From: Mesorhizobium sp.
GTDB taxonomy: Bacteria; Pseudomonadota; Alphaproteobacteria; Rhizobiales; Rhizobiaceae
Direction: 5' to 3'
Assembly: GCA_019509685.1 (NCBI GenBank)
Contig: JAEKLU010000092.1
Location: 1-8,751, forward strand
DNA: 8,751 bases
A program made the translations under genes and the position numbers. The notes beneath the pieces were generated by a model, which ran no database searches, had not been told where the DNA came from, and worked only from the letters and a program-made list of their open reading frames with translations. Below are positions 1 to 7,006 of this stretch, one piece after another. Positions within the stretch are counted from its first letter, which is position 1; every line of letters begins with the position of its first letter.

Positions 1-491
1 TAGGCAAGCAATGTCTGTTCGAGAAGGTCGCGGCCGATGCGCGCGCCGATGCCCTGGTCGCCGACCTGGAATCCCCAGCCGCCGATGGCGCGCGACTTGC
101 CTTGTCTGCGCGCCATGTAGGCGGTGCCGGTGCCGAGGATCGCCATGGCGCCGTCGCCTGATCCGACGGCGCCTTCCAGCGCGATCTCGGCATCGGTCTC
201 GACGCGGCTGACGCTGAACGGCAGAACCGCTTCGAGCTGCTGCCGGTAGGTGCCGACATTGGCGCCGGCAAGGCCCAGAATGGCCGGTGTCTGCGGGATC
301 AGCGCCGGGTCCTGCCCGGCGGCGATGAACGCCTGCCGCGCCGCCTCGACGATGTTCGAACGGGCGCCGGTAAGGTCGGTGCGGATGTTGGCGGCGCCGC
401 TTTTGGCACGGCCGAGGACCATGCCGTCCGCATTTGCCAGGGCGGCCCTGCAGCTGGTGCCACCGCCATCGATACCGAGCACGAAATTCAC
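1..491 (-). CDS. BadF/BadG-family amino-sugar kinase (N-acetylglucosamine / MurNAc kinase type), 3' part missing
   Basis: ATP-dependent sugar kinase of the BadF/BadG/BcrA/BcrD family (actin-like ATPase fold), expected to phosphorylate GlcNAc or a related amino sugar in the cytoplasm. The visible 163 residues are the N-terminal half of a family usually near 290-300 residues; the rest lies beyond the left edge. Seen: phosphate-1 loop GIDGGGTSCR at residues 6-15, a TDAEIALEGA segment at 99-108 with the likely catalytic Asp100, phosphate-2 loop ILGTGTAYM at 118-126, and GGWGFQVGDQG at 137-147, typical of GlcNAc kinases. The start is GTG at 491-489: GGAGGAG at 507-501 sits 7 nt upstream, and the DGGGTS loop then falls at the usual distance from the N-terminus. 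It is transcribed divergently from murQ. The same family includes MurK of Clostridium, which phosphorylates both MurNAc and GlcNAc, so the pairing with murQ fits. Exact substrate is not decidable here. Confidence 0.9.
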   Translation of the reverse strand, partial: MNFVLGIDGGGTSCRAALANADGMVLGRAKSGAANIRTDLTGARSNIVEAARQAFIAAGQDPALIPQTPAILGLAGANVGTYRQQLEAVLPFSVSRVETDAEIALEGAVGSGDGAMAILGTGTAYMARRQGKSRAIGGWGFQVGDQGIGARIGRDLLEQTLLA

Positions 492-511: not shown

Positions 512-539
512 ATAATACCAATAAAATACCAATAGCCAA
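512..539 (-). promoter_or_regulatory. Candidate kinase promoter with embedded TGGTATT operator repeats
   Basis: Reading the minus strand, TTGGCT (539-534) is a candidate -35 and TATTAT (517-512) a good -10, with a 16-nt spacer. Two exact TGGTATT copies lie at 531-525 and 520-514, 11 bp apart; the second supplies the first four bases of the -10. A protein bound to the repeats would cover the promoter, so repression is the natural reading. The predicted transcription start (about 505) lies within the GGAGGAG, leaving a very short leader, so the exact promoter may be elsewhere. The repeats are seen; promoter assignment is inference. Confidence 0.5.
514..531 (-). repeat. Two TGGTATT direct repeats, 11-bp period (kinase side)
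   Basis: On the plus strand AATACCAATA occurs at 514-523 and again at 525-534, identical over 10 bases and offset by 11. On the minus strand the core is TGGTATT, pointing at the kinase gene. Three further copies of the same core, with the same offset, lie on the opposite strand before murQ (649-677), so both divergent genes carry the same element. TGGTAT resembles a half-site of HutC-subfamily GntR regulators such as NagR/DasR or PhnF (family knowledge), but here the copies are direct, not palindromic. The regulator gene is not in the window. Confidence 0.75.
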
Positions 540-640
540 GGGTTAATTTCCGTTTCAAAAAGATTAAGGCGTATTTTATTGAAAATCCTGGGCATTTCGC
601 CGGCTCAGCGATTTCCAGGCCGCGAATTCGTTAATGCTTG

Positions 641-668
641 TGGACAAGTGGTATTTTTTTGGTATTGT
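641..668 (+). promoter_or_regulatory. Candidate murQ-operon promoter with embedded TGGTATT repeats
   Basis: TGGACA (641-646, 5 of 6 to TTGACA) and TATTGT (663-668) are separated by 16 nt. TGGTATT begins exactly 2 nt after the -35 (649-655) and again 11 nt later (660-666), the second copy providing the first four bases of the -10. This is the same arrangement, base for base in spacing, as on the kinase side. The predicted start is near 675, giving a leader of about 15 nt that still contains the GGAGGA at 678-683. Assignment is inference from pattern and symmetry. Confidence 0.5.
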
Positions 669-677
669 TCTGGTATT
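649..677 (+). repeat. Three TGGTATT direct repeats, exact 11-bp period (murQ side)
   Basis: TGGTATT occurs at 649-655, 660-666 and 671-677, each offset by exactly 11 bp, about one helical turn, so all three lie on one face of the DNA. The third copy directly abuts the GGAGGA ribosome site (678-683) and would overlap the predicted transcription start. With the two inverted copies at 514-531 this looks like a shared operator set for the divergent genes. Confidence 0.75.
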
Positions 678-689
678 GGAGGACCAGGG

Positions 690-1555
690 ATGGCCGAAAC
701 GCGCACCGAAGCGCTTCACAGGAATGCCGAGGGGCTGGATATCCAGGCCCCGGAAGCCATCCTTGCTTCGCTGGCCGATGCGCAGGTCGAGGCCGCCAAG
801 GCCGTCCGCAACGCCATTCCGTCCATCGCCAAGGCAGCCGAGATCATCGCCGACAGGCTGAATGGCGGCGGCAGGCTTGCCTATGCCGCGGCCGGCAGTT
901 CCGGCCTGATGGCGCTGGCCGATGCGTTGGAATTGCCCGGCACCTTCGGCATAGAACGCGACCGTATCGCCATCCTGATCGCCGGCGGCGACGAGGCTTT
1001 CAGGGCGCTCGCCGGTGGGCCCGAGGATGACACGGAGGAGGCCGCTGCAGCGGTCGCCAGTGCGGGCATCGGCAAGGGCGACTGCCTGATCGCCGTTTCG
1101 GCCATTCGGCCCTGCTCCAGCAGGCTGGAACCGCCATCCTGCTCGAAACGCCACCGGAAGTGATCGCCGGCTCGACGCGCATGGGCGCCGGCACCGCCCA
1201 GAAGATCGCGCTCAACATGCTGTCGACCTTGACTGCCGTCCATCTCGGCCACGTGCATGACGGCTACATGGTCAACCTCATGGCCGACAACATCAAGCTG
1301 CGCGACCGCGCCGCGCGCATCGTCGCCGCCATCAGCGGGCGCGGCACGGATGAAGCCGCCCGGCTGCTCGAGAAGAGCGGCGGCGCGGTCAAGACCGCCA
1401 TTCTGCTCGCTGCCGGCGCCGACAGTGCCGATGCGGCGCGGAAGATACTGGAGGGGACCGGCCAGAAGCTGCGGCCAGCCCTTTCCGCGCTGGAGCATGA
1501 TCCCGAAAAGTGGAACCCACTTTTCGGAAAAGATCGTGCTCGAACAAAGAAGTAG
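690..1555 (+). pseudogene. murQ: N-acetylmuramic acid 6-phosphate etherase, broken by internal deletion and frameshift
   Basis: An intact MurQ cleaves the lactyl ether of MurNAc-6-phosphate to give GlcNAc-6-phosphate and D-lactate, in cytoplasmic peptidoglycan recycling. ATG 690 has GGAGGA 6 nt upstream. The first frame (690-1163) carries the SIS-domain core: GGGRL at 59-63, GSSG at 69-72, ADALELPGTFG at 77-87 (Glu81 matches the catalytic Glu of the family) and PEDD at 111-114. Homology stops at Ala138 (IAVSA), where E. coli MurQ continues SGRTPYV. It resumes in another frame from about 1106 (SALLQQAGTAILL), then PPEVIAGSTRMGAGTAQ and the C-terminal domain to TAG 1553-1555. Compared from memory with E. 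coli MurQ, about 28-29 codons are missing, an estimated 85 bp with the frame lost. The first frame ends in TGA (1161-1163) overlapping a GTG (1160-1162) that opens the second, so two fragments could be made, but the SG.TPY phosphate-loop segment is absent from both. The last 20 codons are repeat-derived. Confidence 0.85.
1493..1541. repeat. Two-step palindromic intergenic repeat forming the 3' end of murQ
   Basis: Outer arms GAGCATGATC (1493-1502) and GATCGTGCTC (1532-1541) pair over 10 bp with one G-U. Inner arms CCGAAAAGTGG (1503-1513) and CCACTTTTCGG (1517-1527) pair perfectly over 11 bp around an AAC loop; AAAA (1528-1531) bulges on the right. From memory, near-identical palindromes, often read as a protein tail of the HDPEKW..FGKD type, are scattered in Mesorhizobium and related genomes. 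Here it lies inside the reading frame and gives murQ its last residues. No T-tract follows, so it is not a classic terminator. Confidence 0.8.
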
Positions 1556-1672: not shown

Positions 1673-2932
1673 ATGACAACGAAACTACTGACGGCACTGC
1701 TTCTGGGCACCAGCATTCTCGGCTCGGCCGGGTTGGCTCACGCCGCTGACGTAACCCTCAACATCGAAAGCTGGCGCGGCGACGACCTTGCCATCTGGAA
1801 GGACAAGCTGATCCCGGCTTTCGAAGCCAAGAACCCCGGCATCAAAGTGGTGTTCGCACCTTCGGCGCCGACCGAATATGACGCCGCGCTCGGCGCCAAG
1901 CTCGCCGCCGGCTCGGCTGGCGACCTGATCACCTGCCGCCCGTTCGACAAGTCGCTCGAACTGTTCAAGAAGGGCAATCTGGCCGACCTGTCGGGGCTGC
2001 CCGGCATGGACAACTTCTCGCCGGTGGCCAAGGCGGCCTGGAAGACCGACGACGGCAAGTCGAGCTTCTGCGCGCCGATGGCCTCGGTTATTCACGGCTT
2101 CATCTACAACAAGGACGCCTTCGACAAGCTCGGCATCAAGGTGCCGACGACGCGTGACGAGTTCTTTGCCGCGCTCGACAAGATCAAGGCCGATGGCACC
2201 TACATTCCGATGGCGATGGGCACCAAGGATCTCTGGGAAGCCGCGACCATGGGCTACCAGAACATCGGCCCGAACTACTGGAAGGGCGAAGACGGCCGCG
2301 CAGCTCTTATCAAGGGCGAACAGAAGCTGACCGACAAGGACTGGGTTGCTCCTTATGAGGAACTCGCCAAGTGGAAGCCTTACCTCGGCGACGGCTTCGA
2401 AGCCCAGACCTATCCGGACAGCCAGAACCTGTTCACGCTCGGCCGCGCCGCCATCTACCCGGCCGGCTCGTGGGAAATCGGCCTGTTCAACACCCAGGCC
2501 CAGTTCAAGATGGGCGCCTTCCCGCCGCCGGTCGAGAAGGCCGGCGACACCTGCTACATCTCCGACCATACCGATATCGGCATGGGCCTGAATGCGGCGT
2601 CGAAGAATGCCGACGCGGCCAAGACCTTCCTGTCCTGGGTCGCCTCGCCTGACTTCGCCACCATCTATGCCAACGCGCTGCCGGGCTTCTTCAGCCTGAA
2701 CTCCGCGCCGGTGAAGATGGCGGATCCGCTGGCGCAGGAATTCGTCTCCTGGCGCGGCAAGTGCAAGTCGACGATCCGCTCGACCTACCAGATCCTGTCG
2801 CGCGGCACGCCGAACCTGGAAAACGAGACCTGGGTTGAATCGGCCAACGTGATCAACGGCACCGACACCCCCGAAGCTGCCGCCAAGAAGCTGCAGACCG
2901 GTCTCGACGGCTGGTACAAGCCGGCGAAGTAA
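1673..2932 (+). CDS. Extracellular solute-binding protein of a carbohydrate ABC importer (family 1)
   Basis: Periplasmic receptor that captures the sugar and delivers it to the membrane permeases encoded downstream. The 419-residue protein opens with a Sec signal peptide: Lys4, a hydrophobic core LLTALLLGTSILG, and cleavage site AHA|AD after residue 24. The mature part has the family-1 (CUT1, UgpB/MalE-like) start, VTLNIESWRGDDLAIWKD, with KLIPAFEAKNPGIKVVF following, and a mid-protein FTLGRAAIYPAGSWE segment typical of these proteins. Four cysteines (in LITCRP, SSFCAP, GDTCYI and RGKCKS) could form disulphides in the periplasm. ATG 1673 is preceded by GGGAG at 1661-1665 with 7-nt spacing. 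The gene follows the murQ remnant by 117 bp of hairpin-rich DNA and precedes a strong hairpin, the usual arrangement that lets receptor mRNA outnumber permease mRNA. Context favours an amino sugar or amino-sugar oligomer as ligand, but the sequence alone does not fix it. Confidence 0.93.
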   Translation: MTTKLLTALLLGTSILGSAGLAHAADVTLNIESWRGDDLAIWKDKLIPAFEAKNPGIKVVFAPSAPTEYDAALGAKLAAGSAGDLITCRPFDKSLELFKKGNLADLSGLPGMDNFSPVAKAAWKTDDGKSSFCAPMASVIHGFIYNKDAFDKLGIKVPTTRDEFFAALDKIKADGTYIPMAMGTKDLWEAATMGYQNIGPNYWKGEDGRAALIKGEQKLTDKDWVAPYEELAKWKPYLGDGFEAQTYPDSQNLFTLGRAAIYPAGSWEIGLFNTQAQFKMGAFPPPVEKAGDTCYISDHTDIGMGLNAASKNADAAKTFLSWVASPDFATIYANALPGFFSLNSAPVKMADPLAQEFVSWRGKCKSTIRSTYQILSRGTPNLENETWVESANVINGTDTPEAAAKKLQTGLDGWYKPAK

Positions 2933-2947
2933 GACCTCGACAACAGG

Positions 2948-2971
2948 CCGGCCGGGCGCTTGCCCGGCCGG
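2948..2971 (+). terminator. GC-rich intercistronic hairpin after the binding-protein gene
   Basis: CCGGCCGGGC (2948-2957) and GCCCGGCCGG (2962-2971) form a perfect 10-bp stem with a GCTT loop, 15 nt after the TAA at 2930-2932. No T-run follows (GTACACTG comes next), so it is not a standard intrinsic terminator. It more likely stabilises the receptor message and partly limits read-through to the permeases, as in many binding-protein operons. The function is inference; the stem is seen. Confidence 0.6.
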
Positions 2972-3029
2972 TACACTGCCCGTTTTGAGATAACGATTGT
3001 CGGCGCAGCCTCTCGGTCCTACCCTTATT

Positions 3030-3148
3030 TGGCGGGGAAGACGAAGCCGGACAATCGCAGGCCTTGTCCTCACCTGGCGGGGACAATCAAGCCGTGCATC
3101 GAGGCGTCAGCTAGCATCATTTGACCTGGAACCGAGAGACGGCGGGGA
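3030..3148 (+). repeat. Repeated GGCGGGGA leader with alternative GGACAA/TTGTCC stems
   Basis: The octamer GGCGGGGA occurs three times in the gene-free leader, at 3031-3038, 3076-3083 and 3141-3148. The first two head a 20-bp imperfect direct repeat (3030-3049 and 3075-3094, both opening TGGCGGGGA and ending AAGCCG). The third contains the ribosome site of the permease gene at 3157. GGACAATC at 3049-3056 and 3081-3088 flanks TTGTCC at 3064-3069, which could pair with either copy but not both. The rest of 2972-3156 shows no gene or convincing promoter. Confidence 0.5.
3144..3148 (+). promoter_or_regulatory. Ribosome binding site deciding the first permease start
   Basis: GGGGA, 8 nt before ATG 3157. 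An in-frame TTG at 3121 would add 12 residues but has no purine-rich site upstream, so ATG 3157 is preferred. Confidence 0.65.
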
Positions 3149-3156
3149 CCGAACTC

Positions 3157-4086
3157 ATGGCCGCAGAAATACGACCGAAAAGACCGTTTCGCTGGCATAT
3201 CGGCGTCTTCCTGGCGCCGGCTGTGCTGGTCTACACGGCCATCATGATCCTGCCGCTCGCCGGCACGCTGCAGCTTTCGCTGTTCCGCAATGTGAGTGAA
3301 TCGCAGGTCTTCGTCGGGCTTGGCAATTTCCGCACGCTGTTCGGCGACCCCAACTGGTCGGTGGGTTTCTGGAACGCGCTGAGGAACAATGTCTGGTTCT
3401 TCGTCATCCACATGCTGGTGCAGAACCCGATCGGCGTGCTTCTGGCGGCATTGCTCTCCAGCCCGAGGCTGCGGTTCGCAGTGTTCTACCGTACGGCGAT
3501 CTTCGTGCCGACGATCCTGTCCTTCGTCATTGTAGGCTTCGCCTGGAAGCTGATCCTGTCGCCGCTGTGGGGCGTGGCGCCGCATCTCATGGACTTCGTC
3601 GGCTTGAAGAGCCTGTTCACGCCATGGCTCGGCAAGGAACAGTATGCGCTGACCGCGCTCAGCCTGGTCTCGGTATGGCAGTTCGTCGGCATCCCGATGA
3701 TGCTGATCTATGCCGCACTGCTATCGATCCCCGAAGAAGTCATAGAGGCCGCCGAATGCGACGGCATCACCGGCATGGCGCAATTCTGGAAGATCAAGCT
3801 GCCGCTGATCCTGCCGTCGATCGGTATCATCTCGATCCTGACCTTCGTCGGCAATTTCAACGCCTTCGATCTGATCTACACGGCGCAAGGCGCGCTCGCC
3901 GGGCCGAATTATTCGACCGACATCCTCGGCACCTTCCTCTACCGCGCCTTCTTCGGCTTCCAGCTGCAGGTCGGCGATCCCAATATGGGCGCGGCGATCG
4001 CCACGATGATGTTCCTGATCATCCTCGGCGGCGTCTGCGTCTACCTGTTCCTCGTGCAGACGCGCCTGCGTCGCTACCAGTTCTGA
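3157..4086 (+). CDS. Sugar ABC transporter permease, UgpA/MalF-like (CUT1)
   Basis: Inner-membrane subunit that forms the channel with the next gene's product. The protein has 309 residues, normal for the family. Six hydrophobic segments are visible at roughly 14-36, 76-100, 110-133, 165-188, 218-240 and 278-301. The cytoplasmic EAA loop that docks on the ATPase runs from about 193 to 222 and reads EEVIEAAECDGITG, with the conserved Gly at 203. The N-terminus is cytoplasmic and basic (RPKRPFRW). The C-terminus ends LFLVQTRLRRYQF, a common pattern in this family. ATG 3157 is chosen over TTG 3121 because of the GGGGA at 3144-3148. The stop is only 8 nt before the second permease, so the two are surely cotranscribed. 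Substrate specificity cannot be read from the permease. Confidence 0.93.
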   Translation: MAAEIRPKRPFRWHIGVFLAPAVLVYTAIMILPLAGTLQLSLFRNVSESQVFVGLGNFRTLFGDPNWSVGFWNALRNNVWFFVIHMLVQNPIGVLLAALLSSPRLRFAVFYRTAIFVPTILSFVIVGFAWKLILSPLWGVAPHLMDFVGLKSLFTPWLGKEQYALTALSLVSVWQFVGIPMMLIYAALLSIPEEVIEAAECDGITGMAQFWKIKLPLILPSIGIISILTFVGNFNAFDLIYTAQGALAGPNYSTDILGTFLYRAFFGFQLQVGDPNMGAAIATMMFLIILGGVCVYLFLVQTRLRRYQF

Positions 4087-4094
4087 GGCGCGCC

Positions 4095-4934
4095 ATGAGC
4101 ACTGCGACCCGCTCCCTTCCCCGCACCATCGGCGCCCACGCGATCCTGTTGACCTACACGGCGATCGCGCTGTTTCCGGTGATCCTGGTGATCATGAACT
4201 CTTTCAAATCCCGCGCCGGCATCTTCGGCGCACCGCTGACGCCGCCGACGCCAAAAACCTTCGACCTGATCGGCTACACAACGGTGATCGGCCAGGGCGA
4301 CTTCATCCATTATTTCCAGAACAGCTTCGTCGTCACCGTCGGATCGCTGTTCTTCGTGCTGCTGTTCGGCGCCATGGCGGCGTTTGCGCTTTCGGAATAT
4401 CGCTTTCGCGGCAACACGCTGATGGGGCTTTATCTGGCGCTCGGCATCATGATCCCGATCCGCCTCGCTACTGTCGCCATCCTGCAGCTGATGGTGGCGA
4501 GCGGGCTGGTCAACACGCTGACGTCGCTGATCCTGGTCTACACCGCGCAAGGCCTGCCGCTGGCGATCTTCATCCTGTCGGAATTCATGAAGCAGGTGTC
4601 CGACGATCTGAAGAATGCCGGCCGCATCGACGGGCTGTCGGAATACACGATCTTCTTCCGGCTGGTGCTGCCGCTGGTGCGGCCCTCGATGGCGACGGTC
4701 GCCGTCTTCACCATGATCCCGATCTGGAACGATCTGTGGTTCCCGCTGATCCTGGCGCCGTCGGAACAGACCAAGACGGTGACGCTCGGCGCGCAGCTCT
4801 TCCTCGGCCAGTTCGTCACCAACTGGAACGCGATCCTGGCGGCACTTTCGCTGGCGATCCTGCCGGTGCTGATCCTCTATGTCATCTTCTCGCGGCAGCT
4901 GATCCGCGGCATCACGTCGGGAGCCGTCAAGTGA
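4095..4934 (+). CDS. Sugar ABC transporter permease, UgpE/MalG-like (CUT1)
   Basis: Second inner-membrane subunit of the importer. The protein has 279 residues, typical length. Hydrophobic segments lie near 13-35, 77-99, 108-130, 141-163, 198-220 and 246-267. The short periplasmic segment after the first helix and the FQNSFVVTVGS motif (74-84) are characteristic of MalG-type permeases. The EAA loop spans about 168-199; its core reads KNAGRIDGLSEYTIFFRLVL, so the canonical EAA is NAG here while the conserved Gly180 is kept, a common variant. The end LIRGITSGAVK is a family hallmark. ATG 4095 has GAGG at 4085-4088, overlapping the upstream stop codon. The stop codon overlaps the next gene's GTG in a GTGA, implying translational coupling. 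Confidence 0.93.
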   Translation: MSTATRSLPRTIGAHAILLTYTAIALFPVILVIMNSFKSRAGIFGAPLTPPTPKTFDLIGYTTVIGQGDFIHYFQNSFVVTVGSLFFVLLFGAMAAFALSEYRFRGNTLMGLYLALGIMIPIRLATVAILQLMVASGLVNTLTSLILVYTAQGLPLAIFILSEFMKQVSDDLKNAGRIDGLSEYTIFFRLVLPLVRPSMATVAVFTMIPIWNDLWFPLILAPSEQTKTVTLGAQLFLGQFVTNWNAILAALSLAILPVLILYVIFSRQLIRGITSGAVK

Positions 4935-5992
4935 GTTTTCAGAAACCTCTTCGTGTCGTTGTCGCCGGGCTCGGCAATATGGGGCGCAGCCATGCGCTCG
5001 CCTACCACAACAATGCCGGCTTCGAGATCGCGGCGCTGATCAACCGCTCCGACGTGCCACTGCCGGGCGGTCTTGCCGGCCATGAGATCCGGCGCTCGTT
5101 CGAAGACGCATTGCGCGACGAGAAGCCGGATGTCGCCGCGATCGCCACCTATTCCGACAGCCATGCCGACTACGCGGTGCGGGCGTTCGAGGCCGGCTGC
5201 CATGTCTTCGTCGAGAAGCCGCTGGCAACCACGGTGGCGGACGCGCAACGCGTCGTCGACGCCGCCAAGGCCAACGGCAGGAAGCTGGTGATAGGCTATA
5301 TTTTGCGCCACCACCCGTCCTGGATGCGCTTGATCGCCGAAGCACGCAAGCTAGGCGGGCCCTATGTCTTCCGCATGAACCTCAACCAGCAGTCCTCTGG
5401 CCCTACCTGGGGGACGCACAAGCAGCTGATGCAGACGACATCGCCGATCGTCGACTGTGGCGTGCATTATCTCGACGTCATGCTGCAGATCACCGATGCC
5501 AAGCCGGTCGAAGTGCGCGGCATGGGGGTGCGGCTCACCGACGAGATCGCGCCCACCATGTACAATTACGGCCATCTGCAGGTGCTGTTCGAGGACGGCT
5601 CGGTCGGCTGGTACGAAGCTGGCTGGGGGCCGATGATTTCGGAGACGGCGTTCTTCGTGAAGGACGTGATCTCACCCAAGGGCTGTGTGTCGATCGTGAT
5701 GAAGGAAGGCGTGAAGTCCGACGACATCGACACCCATACCAAGACCTCGACCATCCGCCTGCACAGTGCGGCCACCGGACCGGACGGCAAATTCGTCAGG
5801 CCAGACGAGCTGCTGTCGATGGAAGGAGAACCCGGCCATCAAGAACTCTGCGATGCCGAGCAGGCCTTCCTGCTCAAGGCGATCCGCGAGGATGTCGACC
5901 TCACCCGCCACATGGACGATGCCGTGAAATCGCTCGCCGTCTGCCTTGCCGCAGACGAGAGCGTGCGCAGCGGCAACGCCGTGAAACTCTAG
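4931..5992 (+). CDS. Gfo/Idh/MocA-family NAD(P)-dependent oxidoreductase
   Basis: Cytoplasmic sugar or inositol-type dehydrogenase, 353 residues, family-normal. The N-terminal Rossmann fold has VVVAGLGNMGRSHALAY at 9-25 with the GxGxxG at 13-18. The conserved HVFVEKPLA includes Glu95-Lys96-Pro97, whose Lys contacts cofactor and substrate in this family. DCGVHYLDVM starts at Asp175, placing the catalytic-type Asp175 and His179 pair. The C-terminal domain carries the substrate site. The start is GTG 4931, overlapping the permease TGA by four bases (GTGA), which fixes it and implies coupling. Placement between the permeases and the ATPase means the enzyme is made with the importer and probably acts on the imported sugar or its product. 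The substrate is unknown; an amino-sugar derivative is a guess from context. Confidence 0.9.
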   Translation: MSFQKPLRVVVAGLGNMGRSHALAYHNNAGFEIAALINRSDVPLPGGLAGHEIRRSFEDALRDEKPDVAAIATYSDSHADYAVRAFEAGCHVFVEKPLATTVADAQRVVDAAKANGRKLVIGYILRHHPSWMRLIAEARKLGGPYVFRMNLNQQSSGPTWGTHKQLMQTTSPIVDCGVHYLDVMLQITDAKPVEVRGMGVRLTDEIAPTMYNYGHLQVLFEDGSVGWYEAGWGPMISETAFFVKDVISPKGCVSIVMKEGVKSDDIDTHTKTSTIRLHSAATGPDGKFVRPDELLSMEGEPGHQELCDAEQAFLLKAIREDVDLTRHMDDAVKSLAVCLAADESVRSGNAVKL

Positions 5993-6007
5993 AACAGGAA
6001 CGACGCC

Positions 6008-7006
6008 GTGGGCTCGCTGAAGATCGAGAATGTGAAGAAGGCCTTCGGGCCGGTCGAGGTGCTGAAGGGCATCGACCTGGACGTGACCGACGGCGAATTC
6101 GTCGTCTTCGTCGGTCCCTCCGGTTGCGGAAAGTCGACGCTGCTCAGGGTCATCGCCGGCCTGGAGGATTCGACCTCCGGCCGGGTGCTGATCGACGGCG
6201 CGGACGTCTCGATCACGCCACCCGCCAAGCGCGGTATCGCCATGGTGTTCCAGACCTATGCGCTCTACCCGCATCTGACGGTCAAGAACAACATGGCGCT
6301 GGGTCTGAAGCAGGCAAGCACGCCGGCCGCCGAGATCGAGCGCCGCATCGGCATCGCGTCCGCCATGCTGTCGCTGGAGCCATATTTGGAGAGACGTCCG
6401 GCCGAACTGTCGGGTGGCCAGCGCCAGCGCGTCGCCATTGGCCGCGCCGTGGTGCGCGAGCCGAAGCTGTTCCTGTTCGACGAGCCGCTGTCGAATCTCG
6501 ACGCCGCGTTGCGTGTCAACACAAGGCTGGAGATCGCGCAGCTGCACCGCCGGCTCAAGGCAACCATGATCTATGTCACCCACGACCAGGTCGAGGCGAT
6601 GACGCTGGCCGACAAGATCGTCGTGCTCAATGCCGGCCGGATCGAGCAGATCGGCGGACCGATGGAACTCTACAATTCGCCGGCAAACGAGTTCGTCGCC
6701 GGCTTCATCGGATCTCCGAAGATGAATTTTGTGGACGGCGCCAGGCTTGGCGAGACGGCCAAGACCATCGGCGTGCGGCCGGAGCACCTGACGGTCGATC
6801 CGAAATCCGGCGCCTGGAAGGGCACGGTTGTGCATGCCGAGCATCTCGGCGCCGACACCAACCTCTATCTAGACTGCGAGAAGGCCGGGCTGATCACGGT
6901 GCGGATTTTCGGGGTGTATGATGCCGAGCCCGGCGCGACGCTTTATGCGACGCCGGAACCAGGAAAGACCTATCGGTTTGGGACTGATGGGAAGGTGCTG
7001 AAGTAG
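6008..7006 (+). CDS. Sugar ABC transporter ATP-binding protein, UgpC/MsmX/MalK-like
   Basis: ATPase that powers the importer. All motifs are intact: Walker [10 protein letters not shown] at 36-44, Q-loop Gln82 in [12 protein letters not shown], signature LSGGQRQR at 134-141, Walker B LFLFDE at 154-159, D-loop SNLD at 162-165, and H-loop His192. A C-terminal TOBE-like regulatory domain follows, recognised by FIGSPKMNF (233-241) and VRPEHL (256-261). At 332 residues it is slightly shorter than most MalK/UgpC proteins (about 350-370), and the shortfall is in the C-terminal domain. GTG 6008 has AGGAA at 5996-6000, 7 nt upstream, and lies 15 nt after the oxidoreductase stop, so it is the last gene of the operon. 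Its last 113 bp are overlapped antisense by the extended reading frame of the converging FAH-family gene. Confidence 0.95.

Follow-up and report, generated by a model that had tools for sequence, protein, structure and literature searches.

The window, that is, the whole stretch of 8,751 bases analysed here, contains a spacer from which a nagK-like kinase gene is read leftward and murQ, followed by transporter genes, is read rightward. Its features are as follows.

1..491, minus strand: nagK-like kinase of the BadF/BadG ATPase family (Pfam PF01869), with a GTG start read at 491-489, cut by the window edge
512..539, minus strand (539-512): leftward promoter-like sequence TTGGCT-16-TATTAT on the nagK side (consensus scan)
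514..531, minus strand: putative left operator array TGGTATT-N4-TGGTATT, copies 531-525 and 520-514 (exact matches; near-invariant in 78 aligned spacers)
540..640, no strand: spacer middle, poorly conserved in sequence and nearly constant in length (identity and length comparison)
641..668, plus strand: rightward promoter-like sequence TGGACA-16-TATTGT on the murQ side (consensus scan)
649..666, plus strand: putative right operator array TGGTATT-N4-TGGTATT (exact matches; conserved)
671..677, plus strand: third right TGGTATT, adjoining the GGAGGA ribosome site and not general (exact match; also exact at 11 of 199 other loci)
690..1555, plus strand: murQ, N-acetylmuramic acid 6-phosphate etherase, lacking 85 nt that relatives have (two partial ORFs)
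1673..7006, plus strand: solute-binding protein, two permeases, Gfo/Idh oxidoreductase and ABC ATPase (Pfam)

The genes that follow the kinase were read from a relative, Mesorhizobium erdmanii (locus L001), where the leftward order is kinase, GntR/UTRA regulator, NagB-II-like SIS deaminase and NagA. In that locus the NCBIfam models NagK_SO3507 and NagB_SO3506 match below their curated cut-offs and TIGR00221 (nagA) matches above its own. The regulator gene (L001:7180-7962, minus strand) encodes a GntR helix-turn-helix and a UTRA domain according to Pfam, and overlaps the end of the kinase gene by a few bases. The window stops short of it; by the L001 layout its start would lie about 0.4 kb past the left edge. 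The solved structures nearest to the L001 regulator by sequence are those of YvoA (NagR) and DasR, whose operators are palindromic and not direct repeats. On the rightward side, the first part of the window murQ has SIS-type Pfam matches and the second part has none. Alignment with L001, L010 and L013 showed that 85 nt are absent at the junction 1103/1104, with a shift of frame; the intact L001 counterpart passes NCBIfam PRK05441, and the gap reflects either a damaged gene or an assembly error.

Five exact copies of TGGTATT lie in the spacer, two on the minus strand (514-520 and 525-531) and three on the plus strand (649-655, 660-666 and 671-677), and the window holds no further copies. These are the positions given in a first-pass annotation of the sequence, and the 11-bp offset that it reported between neighbouring copies is exact throughout the window. 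Within each array all copies have the same orientation, head to tail. In 200 dinucleotide shuffles of the window TGGTATT occurred 0.21 times on average and at most twice, which rules out a chance origin of the five copies.

A scan for sigma-70-type consensus sequences found exactly two promoter-like sites between positions 490 and 700, against a shuffle mean of 0.4. Both have 9 of 12 consensus matches, with TG preceding the second hexamer, and represent predicted rather than mapped starts. Each array covers its own -35 and -10 elements, the second repeat running into the -10, and the mirror-image layout with repeats built into the -10 boxes, proposed in the annotation, holds. Both -35 elements are closely preceded by TTAA-containing blocks (543-546 and 631-634), which recur in many relatives, each a possible UP element or site of a second regulator.

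Relatives of the locus were obtained by scanning species genomes with the solute-binding protein, and the best 80 of 581 loci formed the first set, mostly from Mesorhizobium, with Aminobacter, Ensifer/Sinorhizobium and Rhizobium-type relatives. A pair of arrays with the 11-bp offset on both sides was present in 78 of the 80 loci, at no more than three mismatches per array, and both arrays were exact in 58. Aligning the spacers of related rhizobia, which had been suggested as a check, thus showed that the spacing is kept. Two loci lack the pair: L060, which is truncated on the left, and L025, whose right copies are offset by 10 bp (L025:8999-9015), the sole such case noticed among the 80. Alignment of 78 spacers, that of the window among them, shows arrays that are near-invariant, unlike the middle. 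One mid-spacer block, ATTTTATTGAAAA at 573-585, is kept in most of these mainly Mesorhizobium spacers and is not kept in the more distant spacers shown in the same alignment. Over a wider range, 77 representatives were chosen for arrays with at most four mismatches in all; CTTGG, 5-9 nt to the inner side of the left array, and CTGGACAA, immediately before the right array in most of them, did not enter into that choice and are also conserved.

The extra copy on the murQ side is exact in the window, as had been described, and is shared by just 11 of the 199 other loci with a measurable array pair (L001, L003, L007, L008, L010, L012, L013, L014, L021, L169 and L170). We therefore rejected it as a general feature: it is restricted to some close Mesorhizobium relatives and cannot be the general reason for unequal control. 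The earlier proposal of one regulator controlling both directions with different strength is retained in its first half, a single GntR-type regulator being most likely, and loses the extra copy as a general explanation of inequality.

Direct repeats of TGGTATT are a published motif. NagQ is described as a HutC-subfamily GntR factor of N-acetylglucosamine use that reads such repeats, and is left out of the correlation analysis of the same paper (PMC4494728); its motif is given elsewhere as a tandem repeat, in alpha- and betaproteobacteria and some gammaproteobacteria (PMC5343134). The 11-bp offset itself was not seen stated in the accessible portions of these sources. Since the site found here is the published NagQ motif and NagQ is a HutC-type GntR protein, the arrays differ from NagR/DasR palindromes and not from known GntR biology. 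The contrast drawn in the annotation between direct repeats and palindromic sites is correct as such, and the direct-repeat operator was already known for a GntR regulator, NagQ (PMC4494728, PMC5343134). The locus is probably a further instance of this operator and its regulator, the tandem direct repeats being found in the window and the GntR and UTRA domains in the relative L001, outside the window's limits. Like the NagQ regulon of Yang et al. 2006, as cited in PMC4494728 and PMC5343134, the locus combines tandem TGGTATT with a GntR gene beside kinase, nagB-II-like and nagA genes in an alphaproteobacterium. It differs in having a divergent pair of operators whose separation is nearly fixed, in its linkage to murQ and an ABC transporter, and in that the exact tandem is confined to one locus in the first nine genomes searched whole.

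Those nine genomes gave 19 exact tandem matches, all in the nagK/murQ-type spacer, and the reversed-pattern control gave none. The predicted recurrence before other amino-sugar genes was not borne out, the exact tandem being confined to one spacer in each of the nine. With up to two mismatches the search of three genomes yielded 12, 13 and 16 matches, and the reversed control 11, 8 and 1. In wider samples, exact sites were found in 52 genomes of the family (199 sampled) and in 52 of the order (397 sampled). Leaving out one order-sample match (G259), 77 of the 96 exact-match loci fall in the divergent spacer between nagK/nagQ and murQ/solute-binding protein genes, 7 have just a NagQ-like GntR gene for a neighbour and the remaining 12 show no homologue close by. 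Among the 199 family genomes, 95 have a strong NagQ match (E of at most 1e-85), and 49 of these carry the exact site, compared with 3 of the 104 others (Fisher p 2.6e-16, from a table tallied by hand); in one of these three, G043, NagQ is split over contig ends. Of the NagQ-positive genomes, 46 lack an exact site; 42 of these have degenerate arrays on both sides (28 at 133-136 bp, 11 at 145-146 bp and three at 105, 108 and 140 bp), and the other four are without a pair.

Because the GntR/UTRA gene directly follows nagK in relatives, the window arrays look like autoregulatory NagQ operators. The name NagQ for the linked regulator, resting on motif, domains and gene neighbours, is a probable assignment, and would give the nagK/nagQ/nagB/nagA and murQ/ABC locus of many rhizobia a likely regulator and operators. 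Two other readings of the arrays were weighed. They might be promoter elements only, an extended -10 with an AT-rich spacer, with no repressor reading TGGTATT, as would suit the overlap of each second repeat with a -10. We consider this highly unlikely: the inner TGGTATT, which lies in the promoter spacer, is conserved to about the same degree as the outer one (among representatives selected to have both), the nine genomes contain no exact tandem elsewhere, and the tandem tracks the GntR/UTRA gene and is the published motif of a regulator. Equally unlikely is a regulator of another type, either a NanR-like, FadR-type GntR protein or a palindrome reader like NagR/DasR. E. coli NanR, of the FadR subfamily, also reads tandem repeats, GntR dimers binding GGTATA cooperatively at sialic acid genes, yet its repeats lie less than half a turn apart (PMC8012715), and here we find TGGTATT at an 11-bp offset, one full turn. 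The linked protein, moreover, carries a UTRA domain of the HutC type. Its closeness to YvoA and DasR among solved structures would favour the palindrome reader; the head-to-tail copies within each array rule out a palindromic NagR/DasR-type site.

The more unusual feature of the locus, missed in the first-pass annotation, is the fixed distance between the two arrays. Distance was taken start to start, the pair being chosen by fewest mismatches, blind to distance within 30-260 bp. Rows L081-L113 (repeat loci or mismatch matches) and L209 (which overlaps L187) were dropped before counting, as were 12 of the 212 oriented loci that had no pair at up to three mismatches per array. In the resulting 200 loci the distance is near-constant at about 135 bp: 148 loci are at 133-137 bp, 16 at 144-147, 10 at 130-132, 8 at 123-125, 4 at 111-113, 4 at 99-102 and 10 elsewhere. 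In the first set of 78 loci the standard deviation was 0.6 bp and 99% of distances lay within 1 bp of the mode. Five control gaps in the same loci varied more: 12% within 1 bp of the mode for solute-binding protein to permease (SD 49, n 80), 18% upstream of the SDR gene (SD 241, n 44), 23% for a further gap (SD 83, n 40), 49% for murQ to solute-binding protein (SD 43, n 76) and 56% for Gfo to ABC (SD 52, n 77). The last two gaps are short and, apart from outliers, fairly constant in about half of the loci; because of this, and because none of the five is a divergent promoter region, the control is imperfect.

A constant distance could also be a mere matter of shared ancestry with few insertions or deletions, considering that most of the 78 loci come from one genus and that two control gaps of the five likewise stay constant in roughly half of the loci. 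We think this improbable, since the three other control gaps reach 12-23% where the arrays reach 99%, and since the distance persists where the middle sequence is near saturation. Among 49 representatives of less than 80% NagQ identity, the median identity of the middle was 0.50 compared with 0.47 for shuffled sequence; 1019 of 1176 pairs were at background identity, and 201 of these share their distance within 1 bp. On a tree of 77 rows, which left out the window and loci with more than four mismatches, the distance changes by no more than 3 bp in 24 of 31 independent pairs.

The distances outside 133-137 bp invite a helical reading. With NagQ clustered at 95, 90, 85 and 80% identity and up to four mismatches allowed, 21 of 41 (p 0.001), 17 of 34 (p 0.004), 15 of 29 (p 0.004) and 10 of 23 (p 0.07) of them fell within 1 bp of 135+11k, five of the 200 loci having been dropped from this analysis. 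At two mismatches or fewer the counts were 14 of 30, 10 of 23, 10 of 20 and 8 of 18 (p 0.018-0.09). Clustering at the 85% threshold gave a best period of about 11.2 bp. Distance differences in the 1019 background pairs, which are not independent of one another, peak at 1, 11 and 33-35 bp, with a flat rise at about 20-24 bp. Yet among independent tree pairs that differ by at least 4 bp, only 4 of 13 are in phase for 11-bp steps, which is the chance level. Through a third partial copy, some arrays (for example in L142, L145, L160, L248 and L251) allow two readings that are 11 bp out of register, and this ambiguity could add 11-bp steps. We therefore rejected a strict claim of helical phasing, given cluster p values of 0.001-0.09 and 4 of 13 in the tree test, and regard the fixed array distance as shown and a phase rule for it as suggestive.

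We propose that the spacer controls a divergent locus for amino sugars and peptidoglycan sugars, with one NagQ-type operator per side, each made of two head-to-tail half-sites one helical turn apart over the -35 and -10 elements. NagQ, a HutC-type GntR protein whose gene comes immediately behind nagK in the leftward operon of related loci, would bind both arrays and exclude RNA polymerase from both promoters, including its own (autoregulation through the nagK operon), and would be released as a sugar phosphate, GlcNAc-6P for example, builds up. The nearly fixed separation of about 135 bp is suggestive of contact between the operators when both are occupied, in a loop or a cooperative complex. 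In our judgement it is very probable that NagQ represses both operons through paired operators on the divergent promoters, with a distance suggestive of contact between them.

The main rival accepts NagQ and takes its two operators as independent, each serving its own promoter, the distance being kept by a third factor bound in the middle or by mutual constraint of the promoters. We regard this as a serious possibility, if on balance not the probable one. Each array does lie over its own -35 and -10, the TTAA-containing blocks recur upstream of both -35 elements, and out-of-phase distances exist (119, 130-132, 139, 140 and 154 bp); against it, the middle is near the shuffled level, with no strongly conserved site beyond the TTAA blocks, and still the distance is largely kept. 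In GntR divergons generally, a constant distance between sites has been taken to indicate cooperation, and a distance that grows with the spacer to indicate separate sites (PMC4494728). By that measure distance tracks intergenic length in 45 compact spacers (r 0.69), which favours independence, and hardly does so over all 75 representatives (r 0.13), so that both patterns hold in part. The same paper describes pairs of GntR-family sites between divergent operons, a subset of them at relatively constant distance and read as cooperative; its section on these pairs gives no helical or 135-bp rule.

Contact between operators has a precedent in E. coli NagC, which has two operators at the divergent amino-sugar promoters of nagE-nagB, and where altered operator phasing derepresses both operons by preventing the repression loop from forming (PMC2946308). 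NagC belongs to the ROK family (PMC5343134) and its loop is reported, whereas the regulator linked to the present locus is GntR/UTRA and its loop would be a prediction; the locus perhaps works like the NagC loop without being a member of that system. AraR of B. subtilis offers a second likeness in operators, cooperativity and DNA looping, to judge from a cited title. NagC is the nearest working model for the present locus; if looping is true, NagC and NagQ, from unrelated repressor families, would use the same loop design for the same pathway. AraR has a GntR-type DNA-binding domain, and its effector domain and operators differ from NagQ-type ones. More specifically, tandem GntR operators may stand some 12-13 turns apart because NagQ closes a loop, evolved independently of NagC and with length changing mainly in steps of about one turn (about 101, 112, 124, 135 and 146 bp); we put this forward tentatively, as a proposal that may almost as well be right as wrong. 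Among the matches listed, chiefly open texts, we found no statement of NagQ operator pairs or of looping by NagQ. The natural series of exceptions (about 101, 112, 124, 131 and 146 bp) could be used to test looping by a direct-repeat GntR repressor.

Related sites were also seen away from the divergent spacer. One genome with a regular pair carries in addition a one-mismatch tandem (G004:C1:1875527-1875544) beside another NagQ-like GntR gene of 48% identity. Three-copy TGGTATT arrays with 11-bp offsets lie at L175:1998-2026 and L177:1995-2023, with no nagK, murQ or solute-binding protein homologue in the 4 kb covered, their neighbour being a second GntR gene with about 48% identity to NagQ; judged by sequence, they are the same type of site in a paralogous system.
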